This document shows, piece after piece, positions 22,355-49,667 of a stretch of 64,000 bases of DNA. A program made the position numbers and the translations under genes. Under the pieces are notes generated by a model that was given only the letters and a program-made list of their open reading frames with translations, was not told the origin of the DNA and ran no database searches. The stretch spans positions 806,001 to 870,000 of the forward strand of contig NZ_JAJFZN010000001.1 of the NCBI RefSeq assembly GCF_020731145.1. The letters run 5' to 3'. How positions within the stretch are numbered: position 1 is the stretch's first letter; each line of letters starts with the position of its first letter. Source of the DNA: Sneathiella sp. HT1-7. GTDB lineage: Bacteria > Pseudomonadota > Alphaproteobacteria > Sneathiellales > Sneathiellaceae.

Positions 22355-22977
22355 GCAGATATCCCGATTTTATGACCGCGCAAGAAGTCAAGCAATGGCA
22401 GGAGTGGCAGCCCGAGAATGGAGAAGAAATCCCCCTCCACCTTCGCAAAAAGATGCGCACCCAACCCTTCGAGCTGATAAGCTCCGACGGAGGAGAGGAT
22501 ATCTTCTCCCGCCCCTGCGAGGTAGCGGTCGAGAAAATCTTCGTCGAAATTGCGCATGGTCAGGCGTGCTTCATCCACATGCCGCCAAATAACGGCCCCG
22601 CCCTTGGCAACGCAGACCGCATTGGCGAGACGATGCGTTTTCCCTCGCAAACTGAGCAAATGCGCCCGCGCATGATCCATATCCACCGGTTTGTCGAACC
22701 AGATGTCGTTGCAATCAAGGATCTGGTCTGCGCCAATGACAAACGCTTCCGGTATTTGCCGGGACACGCGGGATGCTTTGAGTTCAGCCAATGCCACTGC
22801 CGTGTCTGACGCGGGCGCCTTGGCGCCCCGCATGGCGTGTTTGACCTCATCCTCATCTACATTTGCCGGTAAGATATTAAAACTAAGGCCCGCGCGCTCC
22901 AATATCCGGGCGCGAGACATACTCTGCGATGCCAGGACAAGTTCTGGCCCAGAATTCTCCAATTTTTCCCCACTCAC
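22351..22977 (-). CDS. maf: Maf-like nucleotide pyrophosphatase
   Basis: A 208-residue Maf/HAM1-fold protein (LVLASQSMSRARIL at the N-terminus, GADQILDCNDIWFDKP in the middle, SSVGAYQLEGLG late). Family members hydrolyse non-canonical or canonical NTPs. ATGA overlaps occur at both ends, with PPSR and aroE, so it is tightly coupled in the operon. Confidence 0.93.
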   Translation of the reverse strand: MSGEKLENSGPELVLASQSMSRARILERAGLSFNILPANVDEDEVKHAMRGAKAPASDTAVALAELKASRVSRQIPEAFVIGADQILDCNDIWFDKPVDMDHARAHLLSLRGKTHRLANAVCVAKGGAVIWRHVDEARLTMRNFDEDFLDRYLAGAGEDILSSVGAYQLEGLGAHLFAKVEGDFFSILGLPLLPLLDFLRGHKIGISA

Positions 22978-23807
22978 AGCATTCTGTCCCTGGTTTCTTC
23001 CGTGCGGCGGTTAAAAAGGGTGATGATCTGGGCTGCTGTTTCCTCCACCGAGCGGCGGGAAACATCAATGACCGGCCATCCTTCCCGGGTGCAGAGTTTA
23101 CGCGCAAAAATCACCTCTTCCTTGATCCGTTCGCGGTCTACATAGTCCGTATCGACCTTCTGGTTGAGGCTAAGCAAGCGGTTCTTGCGGATCTGCGAGA
23201 GGCGGTCCGGGCTAGTTGTCAGGCCAACGACCATTGTCCTTTTATTGAGGTTAAAAAGGGACTCCGGCAAGGGTATACTGGGCACGATCGGGATATTCGC
23301 CGTCTTATAACCGCGATGGGCAAGATAGAAGGACGTCGGCGTTTTCGACGTACGCGACACCCCGACAAGAACGATCTGCGCCTCATACAAATCATCCGTC
23401 ATCTGGCCATCATCATGAGCCATGGTGAAGTTCAAAGCCTCGATCCGGCCGAAATAATTCTTGTCCAGCATATGCTGCCGACCGGGCAGGCGACGAATTT
23501 CCTGACCCAGAAAATTGGAGAAGGCCGCCAACACGGGATCCAGCACAGAGACGCAAGGTACGCCGACCCTCTGGCAACCCAGCTCCAGCACATCGCGCAT
23601 TTCCTTATTGACCAGCGTATAGAGCACGAGCCCCGGTTTTTTTACAATGGATTCAAGGATATCATCCAATTGACGTACAGTCCGTGTTAATGTCCAGACA
23701 TGCTCGACAGGTGAAATCCCCTCAAACTGAACCAAGGCGGCTTTGGTCATGGATTGCAAGGTTTCCCCGGTTGAATCCGACACCAGATGAAGATGAAATT
23801 GATCCAT
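22974..23807 (-). CDS. Pyruvate, water/phosphate dikinase regulatory protein (PPSR, DUF299)
   Basis: A 277-residue bifunctional serine/threonine kinase and phosphorylase of the DUF299 family that switches PEP synthase or PPDK on and off. Seen are the N-terminal FHLHLVSDSTGETLQSM and the P-loop-like GVSRTSKTPTSFYLAHRGYK. This is the gene (RP001-type) that borders the origin opposite hemE in Caulobacter and relatives. It is the first gene of the leftward unit and its promoter must lie inside the origin gap. Confidence 0.92.
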   Translation of the reverse strand: MDQFHLHLVSDSTGETLQSMTKAALVQFEGISPVEHVWTLTRTVRQLDDILESIVKKPGLVLYTLVNKEMRDVLELGCQRVGVPCVSVLDPVLAAFSNFLGQEIRRLPGRQHMLDKNYFGRIEALNFTMAHDDGQMTDDLYEAQIVLVGVSRTSKTPTSFYLAHRGYKTANIPIVPSIPLPESLFNLNKRTMVVGLTTSPDRLSQIRKNRLLSLNQKVDTDYVDRERIKEEVIFARKLCTREGWPVIDVSRRSVEETAAQIITLFNRRTEETRDRML

Positions 23808-23990
23808 ATTGCTGCGTGGTTATCCTGTGAGTAATGTGAATAACAGGGATAACATGGCTATCTGGGAAAACCCAAAATTTTTCTCCCCGCTAGAGCTTTT
23901 TTTAGGTGCCTACTTGTCCGTCTGTGGGAAAAGGAAAATCGCGTTATCGAAAAACGGGTATATTTTTGATGTTTGATAAACGAAAATGAC

Positions 23991-24008
23991 TTATCCCCGT
24001 TATCCCCG
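23991..24008 (+). repeat. Two adjacent TTATCCCCG 9-mers (DnaA-box-like)
   Basis: TTATCCCCG occurs twice head to tail without a spacer. It differs from the DnaA consensus TTATCCACA at positions 7 and 9. Their spacing puts both on nearly the same DNA face, which would favour cooperative DnaA binding. Confidence 0.6.
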
Positions 24009-24073
24009 ATTTTTATGTGAGCCAAAACTGCCTTTATCACGTAGATATCAACGACTATGTGAAAAACTGGATT

Positions 24074-24082
24074 TTATCCCCA
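24074..24082 (+). other. DnaA-box-like site TTATCCCCA
   Basis: TTATCCCCA differs from the DnaA consensus TTATCCACA only at position 7, the best match in the gap. Confidence 0.6.
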
Positions 24083-24098
24083 GAATTTCTATAAAGGG

Positions 24099-24107
24099 CG
24101 GGGATAA
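24099..24107 (-). other. DnaA-box-like site, reverse strand
   Basis: CGGGGATAA on the + strand reads TTATCCCCG on the minus strand, facing the box at 24074 with 16 bp between them. Confidence 0.55.
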
Positions 24108-24156
24108 AATTTAATCCCCGTTACCCACGGCATACAACAACAACTACTACCTTTTA

Positions 24157-24175
24157 TTTAAATATATTATTTAAA
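24157..24175. repeat. 19-bp AT-only palindrome, candidate DNA unwinding element
   Basis: TTTAAATA-TAT-TATTTAAA is a perfect inverted repeat made only of A and T, located between the DnaA-box cluster and the hemE start. Its position beside DnaA boxes fits a duplex-unwinding element. The TTAA half-sites are 9 bp apart, not the 7 bp of a CtrA box. Confidence 0.45.
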
Positions 24176-24202
24176 GGGATAAGATTCCGGGAAGGAAGAA
24201 GC

Positions 24203-25240
24203 GTGAAAGTTTCATCAAACAAGCCCCTGCTGAAAAGCCTGTCAGGAGACGTACAAGCAAGACCACCTTTCTGGCTAATGCGTCAGGCAGGACGCTATCT
24301 TCCCGAATATCGTGCAACCCGCGCGGATGCAGGTAACTTTCTCGATCTTTGCTATAACCCGAAACTTGCGGAAGAAGTTACTTTGCAGCCCCTCCGTCGT
24401 TATGGCATGGACGCCGCTATCCTTTTTGCTGATATTCTGCTCATCCCTCATGCACTCGGTCAACCGCTTGCGTACAAGGAAGGCGAGGGACCGGTGCTTG
24501 ATCCCATCCGTTCAGCCAAAGAGCTTGGCAAGCTGGATGTAACGGCAATTCATAAAACCCTCGATCCTGTTTATGAGACTGTTGGACGTTTGAGCCAGTC
24601 AATTCCGAAAGATTGCACGCTTATCGGCTTTGCCGGATCTCCCTGGACTGTGGCAACCTATATGGTTGAAGGTCGGGGATCGAAGGATTATGCCAATATC
24701 AAGAACTGGGCCTACAGTGATCCGCAAGGTTTCGGCGCCTTGATGGATATTCTTGTTGAGTCGACAACAGAGTATCTTCTCAAGCAAGTGGCCGCCGGGG
24801 CAGAGGTCATCCAGCTTTTTGATACCTGGGCCGGTGTACTCCCCGATAATGAATTTAAGAAATGGGCCATAGAGCCGACAAAACGCATTGTGGAGGGTCT
24901 GCGTACCCAACATCCGGAATTACCCGTCATTGGCTTTCCCAAGGGCGTGGGCGGTAACATTATCGACTTCGTGAGAGAGACAGGAGTCACCGCGGTCAGC
25001 CTTGATACGGGTACACCGCTCGACTGGGCGGCGCGCGAAGTTCAATCCCTGGTGCCGGTACAGGGAAACCTCGATCCGATGCTGCTGGTTTCTGGTGGTT
25101 CGGCGATGGAAGACCGCATCAATCAAATCCTTGAAACCCTTGGGAAAAATCCTTTTATCTTCAATCTCGGTCACGGGATTGTCCCGCAAACGCCGCCAGA
25201 GCATGTTGCCCGGTTGGCCGAAATTGTTCGGGGGGATTAA
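24203..25240 (+). CDS. hemE: Uroporphyrinogen decarboxylase
   Basis: Decarboxylates uroporphyrinogen III to coproporphyrinogen III in haem synthesis. A 345-residue protein with [17 protein letters not shown] at about 21-37, [13 protein letters not shown] and the late [16 protein letters not shown]. The start is GTG at 24203, preceded by GGAAGGAAGAAGC. It is the first rightward gene from the origin gap, and hemH follows 9 bp downstream. Confidence 0.96.
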
Positions 25241-31848: not shown

Positions 31849-31949
31849 CTATAATCCTGTTCTTGGCCCCCAATTCCGGTATATAGGAGGCTATTGTCGT
31901 TTGTTGTAGCAGAGCAACCACCGCCGGATCAATGAGGAGTAAGCCGCTC

Positions 31950-36215: not shown

Positions 36216-37023
36216 GGATGTTGCAGGTCTTCGAAATTCGGCAACGGCGCGTATTCTGGCCATTGCAAACCAAAAAGGCGGTGTCGGCAAAACCACCACA
36301 ACTATCAATCTGGCAACGGCCCTTGCCGCAATTGGGCAACGCGTCCTGATTATTGATATCGATCCGCAGGGAAATGCCAGCACGGGATTCGGAATCGGCC
36401 GGGAAGACCGGGAACACAATGTTTACGGCGTTCTGATGGGAACAACGCTGATCCAGACGGCTATCCATAAGACAAATATCCCCCAGCTTGACCTGGTACC
36501 CTCCACCGCCGATCTTTCCGGCGCGGAATTGGAGCTGATTGAGCTTCCGCGTCGAAGCCATCGCCTTTATGACGCGGTGTCTGAAGTCCGCGGCGACTAT
36601 GATTATATCCTGATTGACTGTCCGCCATCGCTAAACCTGTTGACACTCAACGCCATGGTGGCCGTCCATGCGGTGGTCGTGCCGCTGCAGTGCGAGTTTT
36701 TCGCTCTTGAAGGACTCAGCATGCTGATAAAAACGATTGAGCGGGTGCGTCTGACTCTCAATCCGGCGCTGGAGATCCAGGGTGTTGTTTTGACCATGTT
36801 CGATAAGCGGAATAATCTTTCCCTGCAGGTCGCACAGGATGTCCGGGATTTCCTCGGCGAAAAGGTTTACCGGACTGTAATCCCTCGCAACGTACGGATT
36901 TCGGAAGCGCCCAGCCATGGCAAGCCCGTGCTGATCTATGATCATCGCTGTGCCGGAAGTCAGGCCTATATCCGCCTTGCCAGTGAAGTGATCCGGCGGG
37001 AACGCCATCTGAACGCAGCCTGA
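36208..37023 (+). CDS. parA: Chromosome partitioning ATPase ParA
   Basis: A 271-residue ParA/Soj ATPase that moves ParB-parS complexes along the nucleoid. The deviant Walker A NQKGGVGKTTTTINLA is at 21-36, with IDIDPQGNAS and DYILIDCPPSLNLLT following. No N-terminal helix-turn-helix extension, as expected for a chromosomal ParA. It overlaps rsmG by 8 bp; parB starts 19-22 bp later. Confidence 0.96.
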   Translation: MSKDVAGLRNSATARILAIANQKGGVGKTTTTINLATALAAIGQRVLIIDIDPQGNASTGFGIGREDREHNVYGVLMGTTLIQTAIHKTNIPQLDLVPSTADLSGAELELIELPRRSHRLYDAVSEVRGDYDYILIDCPPSLNLLTLNAMVAVHAVVVPLQCEFFALEGLSMLIKTIERVRLTLNPALEIQGVVLTMFDKRNNLSLQVAQDVRDFLGEKVYRTVIPRNVRISEAPSHGKPVLIYDHRCAGSQAYIRLASEVIRRERHLNAA

Positions 37024-37045: not shown

Positions 37046-38173
37046 ATGTCTGACGATAATTCAAAAAAGAAACTGGGGCGGGGATTGTCCGCCCTTCTTG
37101 GCGATGATGCCGCCACGGATTATGCCGATCTGGATAAAGTCCGCTCGGCCAAGGAAGTTCCGGTGGAGCAACTCCGTGCGAACAAGTATCAGCCGCGTCT
37201 CGACTGGGATCTGGAGGCGCTCGAGAGCCTGTCTGCCTCCATCGCGGAAAAGGGGGTTCTGCAACCTATTCTAGTGCGCCGTAATCCCGGCAGCTATAGC
37301 GAATATGAAATTGTTGCGGGCGAGCGGCGTTGGCGTGCGGCCCAGCAGGCACAGCTTCACACGGTGCCGGTCATCATCAAGGAGCTGACCGACGCGGAAT
37401 CGATGGAAATTGCGCTGATCGAGAATATTCAGCGTGAAGATCTCTCCTCGATCGAGGAAGCGGAAGCCTACAAGCGGTTGATGGGTGAATTTGACCATAC
37501 CCAGGAAAGTCTGTCGCAGCATGTTGGCAAAAGCCGGACACATGTCGCAAATATGATGCGCCTTCTAACCCTGCCCGCGTCGGTTCAGACGATGGTGAGG
37601 GAGGGAAGCCTCTCCGCCGGTGCGGCGCGTACATTGATTAATCATGACAATGCGGAGAAGCTGGCGAAAAAGATCGTCGCAGAAGGATTAAGTGTAAGAG
37701 CCGCAGAAAAGCTGGCAAAAAGGGGCGATGAGGAACCGCGCACAGAGACAAAAATCGCTCGTGTCCCCAAGGCGGCCAAGGTTGAGAAGAGCCCGGATGT
37801 ACGGGAACTTGAAGATGATCTTACAAATGCAATCGGCATGGCGGTGGAGATTGATCATTTCGCCGACGGTCGCGGCACGGTGACCATTAATTACGGAAAT
37901 CTCGACCAGCTTGACGATGCGTGCCGGCGTTTGACCCGTGAACCCCTTCCGACGCTCAATGAAAGCAAGGAGGAAGACCCCATCGAAGAAGGGGATGACC
38001 TCCGCGATGAGTTCGCGGCCTTTAAAAAAGACGCCGAAGCCGATGTAAACGCGGCGGAAGATGCCTCCGAAGAGACTACGGCTGAAGAAACGGACGAAAT
38101 AGAAGACGCCGGTTCCGAATATGATTACGACGATGAAATCAAGGACGCTCTTGGCGACGCATTGAAAGAATAA
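37046..38173 (+). CDS. parB: Chromosome partitioning protein ParB with acidic C-terminal extension
   Basis: A CTP-dependent DNA clamp that loads on parS. It has the ParA-interacting KKKLGRGLSALLGD at the N-terminus, the CTP-binding GERRWRAAQ near residue 95, ENIQREDLSSIEEA and a helix-turn-helix (ESLSQHVGKSRTHVANMMR). The C-terminal dimer domain ends near residue 297 (YGNLDQLDDACRRLT), where ParB proteins normally stop. Here about 78 residues follow, of which 32 are Asp or Glu. The ATG at 37046 is used; the GTG just before it is equally possible. Confidence 0.95.
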   Translation: MSDDNSKKKLGRGLSALLGDDAATDYADLDKVRSAKEVPVEQLRANKYQPRLDWDLEALESLSASIAEKGVLQPILVRRNPGSYSEYEIVAGERRWRAAQQAQLHTVPVIIKELTDAESMEIALIENIQREDLSSIEEAEAYKRLMGEFDHTQESLSQHVGKSRTHVANMMRLLTLPASVQTMVREGSLSAGAARTLINHDNAEKLAKKIVAEGLSVRAAEKLAKRGDEEPRTETKIARVPKAAKVEKSPDVRELEDDLTNAIGMAVEIDHFADGRGTVTINYGNLDQLDDACRRLTREPLPTLNESKEEDPIEEGDDLRDEFAAFKKDAEADVNAAEDASEETTAEETDEIEDAGSEYDYDDEIKDALGDALKE

Positions 38174-46834: not shown

Positions 46835-46849
46835 GTGATCCCGGATCGC

Positions 46850-46879
46850 TTGACGTGCCACAATTCATTGCTCATTAAT
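46850..46879 (+). promoter_or_regulatory. Predicted sigma-70-type promoter of porin 1
   Basis: TTGACG (46850-46855), 18-bp spacer, ATTAAT (46874-46879). The predicted start near 46886 gives a leader of about 78 bases before the porin ATG at 46964. Confidence 0.5.
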
Positions 46880-46963
46880 TCCGCCGGACCGCTGGGGCGC
46901 CTCGGTCATTCGCTTTTATTATCAATCTATTATGCAGCTGTTGCTCGGCTGCCAGGAGTCAAA

Positions 46964-48109
46964 ATGAAAAAGGCAATTTTGGGTACGACAGCGCTTGTTG
47001 CCGCTGGCGCATTCGCTACCTCACCGGCCTCCGCGTCTGATAAAATTCAGCTAGGAGTTGGTGGTTACATGCAGTCCACTTACTTCTACCAAGACAGCGA
47101 TGAGCCAGCAGGCACAGCATCACGTACTTCCGACCGGGTAACTCAAGAAGGTGAAATTCATTTCACCGGCGAAACAACACTCGATAATGGCCTGAAATTC
47201 GGTGTCAACGTTCAGCTCGAAGCTTATCAGGCGACTGACCAGATCGACGAAACCTACATTTATGTTGAAGGTTCTTTCGGCCGTGTTCTTCTTGGTTCTG
47301 AAAACAGTGCATCTTACCTGATGCATTACACCAGCCCGTCGCCAGTTCCGATGTATTCGGCGGATTCGAATAACATTGCACCGACAGGTCAGGCCAACAC
47401 GACCTATAACAATATGTTCTCCGATGCCGACAAAATCACATACTTTTCGCCTCGGTTTGCTGGCTTCCAGTTTGGTGCGTCCTATGTTCCCGACGGAAAT
47501 GCTGAAACCGGCTCAAGCGGTAATACCCAGTTCCAGGCGCCTGCGTTGGAAACCGGTCTTGATCGTGGTTACTCTGTCGCTGTCAACTATGTTAACAAAT
47601 TCGGTGGCGTTGATGTAGGTGTCTCCGCCGGTTATGAACAAGCTGATGTAACAGTCACTACTACAGCTCCAGTTTATGCGTTTAATCCGTCAACAGGTGG
47701 GTCTACGCTCGTAACTCCGGCAGTTACGGCTGATGGCGAAGATCAGGAAGCATATAGCTTCGGCACATCCGTTGGTGTCGCCGGATTTACAGTCGGTGCG
47801 GGCTATTCAAAGATTGAAAACCTATCAGGTGTTTCAGGCGATGATAGAAAAACTTGGTCCGCTGGTCTGAAATACGGTCAAGGCCCTTGGGCAGTTGGCG
47901 TACAGTACTCAAAAAGTACCGATGAGCCCGCCGCGGGTGCCGATATTGATGCGACGACATGGATCATCGGCGGTCAATATGTACTCGGCCCGGGAATCAC
48001 CGCATTCGGAGGTGTTGAAATCGATGACAACGACCTGGCAGCAAGTACGGCAACTCGTATGGCCGGAAAAACAAACACATTCTTTGTGGGTACAGCTGTA
48101 AGCTTCTAA
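46964..48109 (+). CDS. Outer-membrane porin, copy 1
   Basis: A 381-residue trimeric-type porin of the alphaproteobacterial family. Residues 1-22 are a Sec signal peptide (MKKAILGTTALVAAGAF..ASA), the mature part starts with GVGGYMQSTYFYQ, and the chain ends VGTAVSF, with the C-terminal Phe recognised by the BAM complex. The ATG at 46964 has CAGGAG upstream; the longer open frame starting at 46835 lacks a signal. It is a close paralogue of the next gene. Probably controlled by a CRP-family protein and ended by the hairpin at 48136. Confidence 0.92.
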   Translation: MKKAILGTTALVAAGAFATSPASASDKIQLGVGGYMQSTYFYQDSDEPAGTASRTSDRVTQEGEIHFTGETTLDNGLKFGVNVQLEAYQATDQIDETYIYVEGSFGRVLLGSENSASYLMHYTSPSPVPMYSADSNNIAPTGQANTTYNNMFSDADKITYFSPRFAGFQFGASYVPDGNAETGSSGNTQFQAPALETGLDRGYSVAVNYVNKFGGVDVGVSAGYEQADVTVTTTAPVYAFNPSTGGSTLVTPAVTADGEDQEAYSFGTSVGVAGFTVGAGYSKIENLSGVSGDDRKTWSAGLKYGQGPWAVGVQYSKSTDEPAAGADIDATTWIIGGQYVLGPGITAFGGVEIDDNDLAASTATRMAGKTNTFFVGTAVSF

Positions 48110-48135
48110 ACCCCTACTCAATTTGAATGGCATAT

Positions 48136-48167
48136 GAAAGAGGGCAAAGATTCTGCCCTCTTTTTTA
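48136..48167 (+). terminator. Rho-independent terminator after porin 1
   Basis: AAAGAGGGCA, a 7-base loop, TGCCCTCTTT and a T-run. Confidence 0.9.
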
Positions 48168-48524
48168 TTAGATTCTGACACGGCAGCAGGATTCTGCACT
48201 TGCCGCAGTTTTGGCATGAAAATAGCAGAAATATTGATATAACCGGGCGTCGATACTGTTTTTGCTGGCGACCTTTAAAAACGACGAAAATAAAATAGGT
48301 TATGCCTCATTCCTGATGTGCCAATGCAAACATGATTAACGAAGTATGACCTAATTGTGACTTTTTGAGCACAGTCATTCGAATTTGGAGAAAAGGCCAT
48401 CGTCTTGCGCTTGACCAGATGGCCGTTAACCTTCTTTACTCCCTCTTGACTTACGGGCCGTTTGGCCTTGCGTCTGTATTTTAATCTTAGTTCTCTAGCT
48501 TGTTGTGAGCAGAGGGGAGACAAA
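48168..48524. promoter_or_regulatory. Upstream region of porin 2
   Basis: 357 bp without a gene. It contains an inverted repeat GGCCATC (48395-48401) / GATGGCC (48418-48424). The right arm lies next to a possible -35 TTGACC (48411), followed 18 bp later by TTTACT as a weak -10; a second TTGACT occurs at 48446. It shows no copy of the TTGTGA-N6-TCACAA dyad seen before porin 1, so the two porins are probably controlled differently. Confidence 0.35.
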
Positions 48525-49667
48525 ATGAAAAAAGCAATCTTGGGTACGACAGCGCTCGTTGCCGTTGGTGCACTCGCTGCAGCACCGGCTTCCGCGTCTG
48601 AAAAAATCGCCTTGGGTGTAGGCGGCTATATGCAGTCCACCTATTTCTATCAGAGTTCCGATGAGCCAGCTGGTACGCCGGATCGTACTTCTGACCGTGT
48701 AACGCAAGAAGGTGAAATTTTCTTCACCGGTTCAACAACTTTGGACAATGGCCTGAAATTCGGTGTCAACGTTCAGCTTGAAGCTTATGAAGCAACAGAT
48801 CAGGTCGACGAAACATACATCTATGTTCAAGGCTCTTTCGGTCGTGTTCTTCTCGGTTCTGAAGACTCTGCTGCATACCTGATGCATTACACGAGCCCAT
48901 CACCGGTTCCAATGTATTCTGCTGACTCAGCTAACATCTATCCTACGGGCCAAGGCAACACGACTCGTCCGAACATGTTCTCTGACTCAGACAAGATCAC
49001 CTACTTTACGCCGCGTTTCGCTGGCTTCCAGTTGGGTGCTTCTTATATTCCTGATGGATCTAGCCAGACTGGCACAGGCGAATCCCAGTATGCTGCACCT
49101 TCATACGATTCTGGTACAGATCGTGGTTGGTCAGTAGCTGCTAACTATGTCAACAAGTTCGGTTCAGTCGACGTAGCAGCATCTGCTGCATACCAGCAGG
49201 CTGATACGACAGTTGTCGTAACGGCTCCTGTCTACGCATTCAACCCTGGAACAGGTGGTTCTACTCTTGTAACTGCTGCTGTAACAGGTGATGGCGACGA
49301 TTACGAAGAATATGCATTCGGCGTATCTATCGGTGTTGCTGGCTTCACAGTTGGTGGTGGTTACGGTGTTGACAAAAACATCTCTGGTGTTTCCGACAAC
49401 GATAGCAAAGCATGGTCCGCTGGCGTTAAATACGGCATGGGCCCATGGGCAGTTGGTGTACAGTACTCCAAAACGACCTTTGAACCTGCTGCCGGTGGCG
49501 ACACCGACCAGACAACTTGGCTCGTCGGTGGTCAGTATACACTCGGCCCGGGAATCACCGCATTCGGTGGTTGGCAGTATGATGACAATGATTTGGCAGC
49601 ATCTTCAGCTACTCGTATGGCTGGCGACACAAGCACATTCTTTGTTGGTACAGCTCTTTCCTTCTAA
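48525..49667 (+). CDS. Outer-membrane porin, copy 2
   Basis: A 380-residue porin closely related to copy 1: same signal peptide pattern (MKKAILGTTALVAVGAL), GVGGYMQSTYFYQSSDEPAGT, LMHYTSPSPVPMYSAD and terminal VGTALSF. AGAGGGGAGA precedes the ATG at 48525. Its codons favour GCT, GTA, GGT and AAC-type choices more than copy 1, consistent with very high expression. Differences cluster in loop-like stretches. Terminated by a strong hairpin. Confidence 0.92.
   Translation: MKKAILGTTALVAVGALAAAPASASEKIALGVGGYMQSTYFYQSSDEPAGTPDRTSDRVTQEGEIFFTGSTTLDNGLKFGVNVQLEAYEATDQVDETYIYVQGSFGRVLLGSEDSAAYLMHYTSPSPVPMYSADSANIYPTGQGNTTRPNMFSDSDKITYFTPRFAGFQLGASYIPDGSSQTGTGESQYAAPSYDSGTDRGWSVAANYVNKFGSVDVAASAAYQQADTTVVVTAPVYAFNPGTGGSTLVTAAVTGDGDDYEEYAFGVSIGVAGFTVGGGYGVDKNISGVSDNDSKAWSAGVKYGMGPWAVGVQYSKTTFEPAAGGDTDQTTWLVGGQYTLGPGITAFGGWQYDDNDLAASSATRMAGDTSTFFVGTALSF

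Follow-up and report, generated by a model that had tools for sequence, protein, structure and literature searches.

The gap between a DUF299 gene and hemE as the probable chromosome origin of an alphaproteobacterium, with W-boxes and a trio-like repeat

The 395-bp gap between the divergent DUF299 and hemE genes described here is very probably the chromosome origin (oriC) of the bacterium from which the sequence derives. The gap lies in a window, i.e. the whole stretch of 64,000 nucleotides that was analysed, which corresponds to bases 806001-870000 of a 1.08-Mb contig within a 3.83-Mb draft genome. A sequence-only reading of the window had placed oriC in this gap and had attributed to it DnaA boxes that favour CCCC over CCACA. 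The first claim is strongly supported, because the conservation of the gap, the clustering of its boxes, the parS sites nearby, the GC skew and the weakness of the helix all point to oriC; the preference of the boxes has to be read differently. Taken as a whole, the explanation in which the gap is the chromosome origin, where DnaA would fill the boxes, engage a repeat next to them and open an AT-rich stretch, is one that we hold with considerable confidence.

Gene context of the gap

The locus consists of the following features:
22974..23807, minus strand: DUF299 gene (Pfam Kinase-PPPase), adjoining hemE in 24 of the 25 loci of the order
23808..24202, no strand: probable oriC, the whole DUF299-hemE gap; 394-430 bp in 23 of 24 congeners (those with an extractable gap)
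24203..25240, plus strand: hemE (Pfam URO-D); all 25 genomes of the order have homologues

The order was represented by 25 genomes, 24 of them from one genus, and the gap was extracted from 24. The genus alignment comprises 23 gaps of 394-430 bp; G015 was left out (contig edge), as was G001, which belongs to another genus and has a different gap of 593 bp. In the window the GC content of the gap is 0.385 versus 0.534 for the window as a whole, and the gap size, AT-richness and divergent flanks given by the sequence-only reading agree base for base. The position between divergent hemE and DUF299/RP001-type genes, a trait of hemE-type origins, is present in the window; the DUF299 gene is the RP001-type neighbour of hemE. 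The Caulobacter origin Cori presumably lies beside hemE too, as is implied by PMC4741004. The hemE neighbourhood has been used to place alphaproteobacterial origins, and the oriC of Sphingopyxis resembles the gap described here: it is intergenic, adjoins hemE and has conserved boxes as well as a DUE (PMC4741004). An origin beside hemE is already known for alphaproteobacteria, and the window holds an ordinary thing in its expected place.

Two minor observations concern coding regions. An incomplete congener draft (L047, G017:C17) contains a second HemE-like gene, 50% identical, on what could be a foreign contig. At 46835-49667 the window harbors two similar tandem porin genes, both assigned to Pfam Porin_4.

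Putative DnaA boxes and their conservation

The putative DnaA boxes of the gap, with their occurrence in the 23 aligned congeners, are:
23826..23852, minus strand: left array of three head-to-tail 9-mers, TTATCCCTG (23844-52), TTATTCACA (23835-43) and TTACTCACA (23826-34)
23991..23999, plus strand: central W-box a, TTATCCCCG; TTATCCCC in 23/23
24000..24008, plus strand: central W-box b, TTATCCCCG, in tandem to a; TTATCCCC in 3/23, ATCCCC in 12/23
24074..24082, plus strand: right W-box c, TTATCCCCA; CCCC form in 16/23, CCACA form in 7/23
24099..24107, minus strand: right W-box d, CGGGGATAA; exact in 6/23
24112..24120, plus strand: W-box e, TAATCCCCG, first of the two forward boxes of the opening module; ATCCCC (at 24114) in 23/23
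24121..24129, plus strand: second box of the opening module, TTACCCACG, degenerate in the window; TTATCCACA or TTATTCACA in 11/23
24176..24182, minus strand: inverted TTATCCC on the hemE side; GGGATAA in 21/23

The tandem pair of 9-mers and the boxes in both directions that had been reported from the sequence alone were found again (23991-24008; 24074-24082 on the plus strand; 24099-24107 on the minus strand), and the 19-bp A/T-only palindrome at 24157-24175 proved to have 8-bp arms and a 3-bp loop. That reading did not contain the canonical TTATTCACA (23835-43, minus strand), the left array to which it belongs, or the trio-like repeat at 24135-24151. In the alignment of the 23 congeners, conservation over nine columns is highest in the blocks of the left array (1.00 when rounded), with CAGGGATAA at 23844 kept in 22 of 23, and the boxes run head-to-tail with canonical ones in a 9-bp phase.

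The boxes are strongly clustered. The genome of 3.83 Mb contains 100 sites of TTATCCCC, by which about 0.010 are expected in the gap, and four are seen there (Poisson P = 4e-10, or about 4e-6 across all windows of equal size); among the 100 listed genome sites no second pair lies 400 bp or less apart. When sites matching any of four box patterns are counted, the gap, with six, is the densest 400 bp of 464 kb, and the next place outside it has three.

Evidence for a replication origin

Five of the six parS sites of the genome (perfect or with one mismatch) lie about 5-12 kb from the gap, and genes for ParA and ParB are found at 36-38 kb of the window. In the congener G002, which is assembled in one contig, the cumulative skew over 120 kb has its minimum at 37,234, less than 1 kb from the gap, which ends at 36,974 (hemE starts at about 36,975), and 36 kb from dnaA. 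A skew switch near dnaA, which the sequence-only reading had named as the result that would speak against an origin in the gap, was not seen. Twenty stretches sampled round the G002 chromosome gave positive skew in nine of the ten in the half past the gap (to 2.0 Mb), the exception being the 23-43 kb stretch (-0.006), and negative skew in all ten others. The skew switch expected at a hemE-type origin is found at the gap in G002; the window's own draft contig has a broad minimum at window position 31,878, 8 kb to the right of the gap, which lies 66 units above it.

The position of this latter minimum would fit a start of replication nearby but outside the gap, for example at 31.9 kb itself or near dnaA, 35 kb to the left, where three box-like sites occur at C1:792435-792713, outside the window and about 1-1.3 kb before dnaA. 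The first of these (G000:C1:792435) is a copy of TTATCCCC that directly precedes rpsT (Pfam Ribosomal_S20p) and stands about 1.3 kb ahead of dnaA; the two others lie within 300 bp of it. However, the 66 skew units that separate the gap from the minimum compare with a swing of several thousand, the G002 minimum adjoins the gap, and the density of boxes is higher in the gap; a start elsewhere in the neighbourhood is considered very unlikely.

The strand preference of GGGNAGGG, which we take to be a polar motif, flips at the gap, with 12 copies on the plus and 21 on the minus strand to its left, and 23 and 8, respectively, to its right. The 12 weakest 30-mers of the window all start at 24142-24155, and the combination of a DnaA-box cluster with an AT-rich unwinding stretch, another trait of hemE-type origins, is present. 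Two divergent genes need promoters here, and the gap might be no more than the promoter region of hemE and DUF299, its DnaA sites serving to regulate the two genes. This proposal, which we consider highly improbable, is at odds with the ordered boxes, three of which are kept in 22-23 of 23 species, with the AT-rich stretch and the trio-like repeat, the latter present in 23 of 23, and with the skew minimum and the parS sites. The features of the gap are better described as those of oriC.

Nature of the CCCC boxes

In the Caulobacter crescentus origin, where weak and stronger boxes are mixed as they appear to be here, the W-box core TCCCCA is bound very weakly by DnaA (PMC4285127, PMC4468827). 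The exact TCCCCA core occurs in box c (24074-24082), and the other four W-boxes (a, b, d and e) have G as their last letter. In our best reading, the TTATCCCC boxes are Caulobacter-type W-boxes, probably weak DnaA sites that are mixed with canonical ones. Unlike Cori, the gap contains the canonical TTATTCACA and no TGATCCACA, and TTAA-N7-TTAA sites for CtrA were absent from all 24 gaps tested in the order (only 4 of the 68 class gaps described below have them); control by CtrA within the gap was rejected on account of the result for the order.

The earlier statement that the boxes favour CCCC holds in so far as the sites are real, but they do not represent a new DnaA consensus: domain IV is canonical, and a homologous site alternates between CCCC and CCACA. 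A new box specificity of DnaA was rejected because GGRDHTTV, with the GRDHTTV motif, is intact in the canonical domain IV of the window's DnaA; the motif is intact in 53 of 63 alphaproteobacterial DnaAs. Since site c occurs in both forms in the genus (16 and 7 of 23) and the box-reading helix of DnaA is the usual one, the CCCC boxes appear to be weak versions of one kind of site. The W-box as such is a known kind of site, and DnaA of the window's species would be expected to bind it weakly.

W-boxes across the Alphaproteobacteria

The first class sample consisted of 85 further hemE loci, 25 returned by a scan and 60 hand-picked from its list for family spread. These gave 70 divergent DUF299-hemE gaps, and 15 loci had no DUF299 nearby (one cut to 247 bp); two gaps of at least 800 bp were dropped and 68 were kept. 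The second sample comprised at least 80 loci, of which, among the matches listed, 43 had DUF299 and 42 of these had gaps below 800 bp.

TTATCCCC is present in 43 of the 68 gaps of the first sample (1.9 expected) and, among the matches listed, in 10 of the 42 of the second (0.8 expected). The idea that it is the commonest word in the class was abandoned: true in the first sample, it fails in the second, where, among the matches listed, CTGTGGAT (24 of 42) and other words are ahead of it. The weaker claim, that TTATCCCC is enriched in class gaps, was kept. The shorter ATCCCC occurs in 66 of 68 gaps (27.3 expected) and in 31 of 42 among the matches listed (15.4 expected), and canonical TTATNCACA in 27 of 68 and, among the matches listed, 21 of 42. 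The recurrence of W-boxes across the class (43/68, and 10/42 among the matches listed) is new and suggests that they are not peculiar to Caulobacter. An abstract from 2011 reportedly claimed W-boxes in other origins already. A 2024 review states that weak DnaA sites had hitherto not been found in other bacteria (PMC10797057).

The change from A to C at position 7 is specifically kept, with 33 sites of TTATCCCCA in the 68 gaps and three sites each when G or T replaces that C, which would be compatible with TTATCCCC being the site of another origin-binding protein and not of DnaA. We regard this as quite unlikely in view of the alternation of CCCC and CCACA at the homologous site c, of the 9-bp phase that the boxes share with canonical ones, and of the weak binding of TCCCCA by Caulobacter DnaA (PMC4285127). 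Recognition by DnaA is the preferred reading.

The proposed opening module

Next to the two right-most forward boxes, two further elements are found:
24135..24151, plus strand: trio-like array C-AACAACAACTACTACC; the complementary strand reads three 3'-GTT-5' followed by two 3'-GAT-5'; array in 23/23 congeners
24152..24175, no strand: putative unwinding stretch of 24 bp, A/T-only, in which the 19-bp palindrome occupies 24157-24175; A and T make up 0.84-1.00 of the stretch in the 23 congeners

All 23 congeners have five units after the last forward box and before the AT stretch. In the genus 105 of the 115 units are (A/T)AC, and on the complementary strand 68 of 115 read 3'-GTT-5' and 37 of 115 read 3'-GAT-5'. 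The order box-trio-AT stretch is also found in 39 of the 68 class gaps, compared to 4 when the reverse strand is read and 5.9 after mononucleotide shuffling. With a stricter score, applied earlier, 27 of the 68 gaps qualified; the reverse strand then gave 1 and dinucleotide shuffling 3.2. In the second sample, among the matches listed, 20 of 42 gaps show it (reverse strand 1 of 42, or 2 anywhere; shuffles 1.9), and a few of these 20 (e.g. L258, L263 and L270) resemble chance by eye. The order was missed in 29 of 68 class gaps and, among the matches listed, in 22 of 42 of the second sample. In 36 class gaps with a clear run, 36 copies of TCCCC or TCCAC occur up to 60 bases upstream of it, and 26 of these copies sit 16-25 bases off, usually with a looser box in between.

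The layout of tandem boxes, spacer, period-3 repeat and AT-rich DNA is present in the window and resembles the basal unwinding system of B. subtilis, for which PMC8287927 describes two co-oriented boxes, a short spacer, a period-3 repeat and AT-rich DNA. The units differ, being 3'-G(T/A)T-5' instead of 3'-GAT-5'. In B. subtilis, A or C is the best middle base of a trio and is touched by Asn187, whereas T or G impairs opening (PMC10721633). We re-coded the published unwinding rule as at least three 3'-NAN-5' trios at most 16 bp from a box with at most two mismatches, with the last 130 nt of the gap taken as the hemE-side module. In this module the rule finds nothing in the window, and it picks out 4 of 23 congeners and 7 of 68 class gaps; anywhere in the gap and on either strand it finds cases in the window, in 20 of 23 congeners and in 41 of 68 class gaps, versus 10.6 of 23 and 13.2 of 68 in shuffles. 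A likeness to E. coli oriC also exists: the complementary strand reads 5'-GGTAGTAGTTGTTGTT-3', in which TTGT recurs, and 5'-TTGT-3' is the single-strand motif given in PMC10797057. In contrast to E. coli oriC, the window has a strict period-three repeat beside the boxes.

The plus-strand array has a near-invariant A, with units (A/T)AC in 105 of 115 cases, and the inverted TTATCCC at 24176-24182 (GGGATAA in 21 of 23) lies on the hemE side and is directed into the AT stretch, so DnaA might grip the other strand. We consider this unlikely: the inverted box is 24 bp from the array, more than the 16 allowed by the published scheme, and trios mirrored on the far side of the AT stretch occur in 1 of 68 class gaps, which at 0.9 in shuffles is chance level. 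In the scheme that we prefer, DnaA would use its ordinary box-reading domain to bind the minus-strand array on the left, the W-box pair in the centre and the boxes on the right, and the weak W-boxes would fill by cooperation as active DnaA accumulates. The two right-most forward boxes (24112-24129) would aim DnaA at the repeat next to them (24135-24151); there it may assemble on one strand and open the 24-bp A/T-only stretch, leading to helicase loading. The choice of strand and the opening of repeat and AT stretch are predicted from the arrangement of these sequences.

GANTC is a methylation site and is contained in AGAATCTT/AAGATTCT, which occur, among the matches listed, in 14 of 42 second-sample gaps (0.8 expected; e.g. 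L245), often in the AT stretch. AGATTCT/AGAATCT is found in the last 120 nt of 16 of the 68 first-sample gaps. GANTC near the AT stretch is common in the class; it was left out of the mechanism because it is not conserved in the genus alignment.

The DnaA pocket and the letters of the repeat

Alignment of the window's DnaA with PDB 8btg showed a further difference from B. subtilis: Asn187 is replaced by Tyr212 and Arg202 by Lys227, while Asn196 corresponds to Lys221, Ile190 to Ile215, and Glu228 is kept. At the place of Asn187, 60 of 63 alphaproteobacterial DnaAs have an aromatic residue (Tyr 54, Phe 5, His 1; the others are Asn 2 and Gln 1). In 26 DnaAs from other classes of the phylum, among the best 30 of 90 genomes, it is Ala (10), Thr (10), Gln (5) or Asn (1). 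A second set of DnaAs, weighted to unusual forms, added Trp, Ser, Val and more Asn types; its 30 genomes were chosen partly to enrich unusual DnaAs, and the five without DUF299 beside hemE were kept.

Some Asn lineages have repeats like CTACTACTGCTACTA, i.e. A on the complementary strand. The mean share of units with A on that strand is 0.33 for aromatic residues (Tyr, Phe, Trp, His; 54 runs in 93 genomes) and 0.72 for Asn (6 runs in 8 genomes); other pocket residues gave 1 run in 9 genomes. A rank test gave P 0.005, ignoring kinship, with the Asn group made up of about two lineages. Lineages with Asn at the pocket tend to keep A in the repeat, which may indicate co-change. We treat this as a lead only, because kinship is ignored, the Asn group amounts to about two lineages, the genomes were partly chosen, a Tyr genome (L249) has five A-type units, and run detection also picked up letters of boxes in certain rows (G191 and L264; the L264 row misses its CTACTGCTACTACC).

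That the base-capturing pocket of DnaA and the opening repeat changed together in Alphaproteobacteria is a tentative proposal, about which we are more doubtful than hopeful. If true, pocket and repeat would together form a code that links initiator and origin and can be read, and trio searches of the published kind would overlook such a form. Relative to what our searches found in print (alphaproteobacterial trios; W-boxes elsewhere), the novel element would be a recurring module with altered units and a matching change in DnaA. For the question of how DnaA opens origins without clear trios of the B. subtilis type, a recurring altered module beside a changed pocket residue provides a directly testable case.

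The Trp-type genomes form a group of their own, with runs in 0 of 8 under the trio criterion. In four rhizobial gaps whose DnaA has Trp at the pocket and which that criterion misses (L277, L287, L301 and L312), a different stretch precedes the AT region, for example CAACCACCACAACCAACAGACTC in L287 and CACCGACTCTAAGAA in L312.
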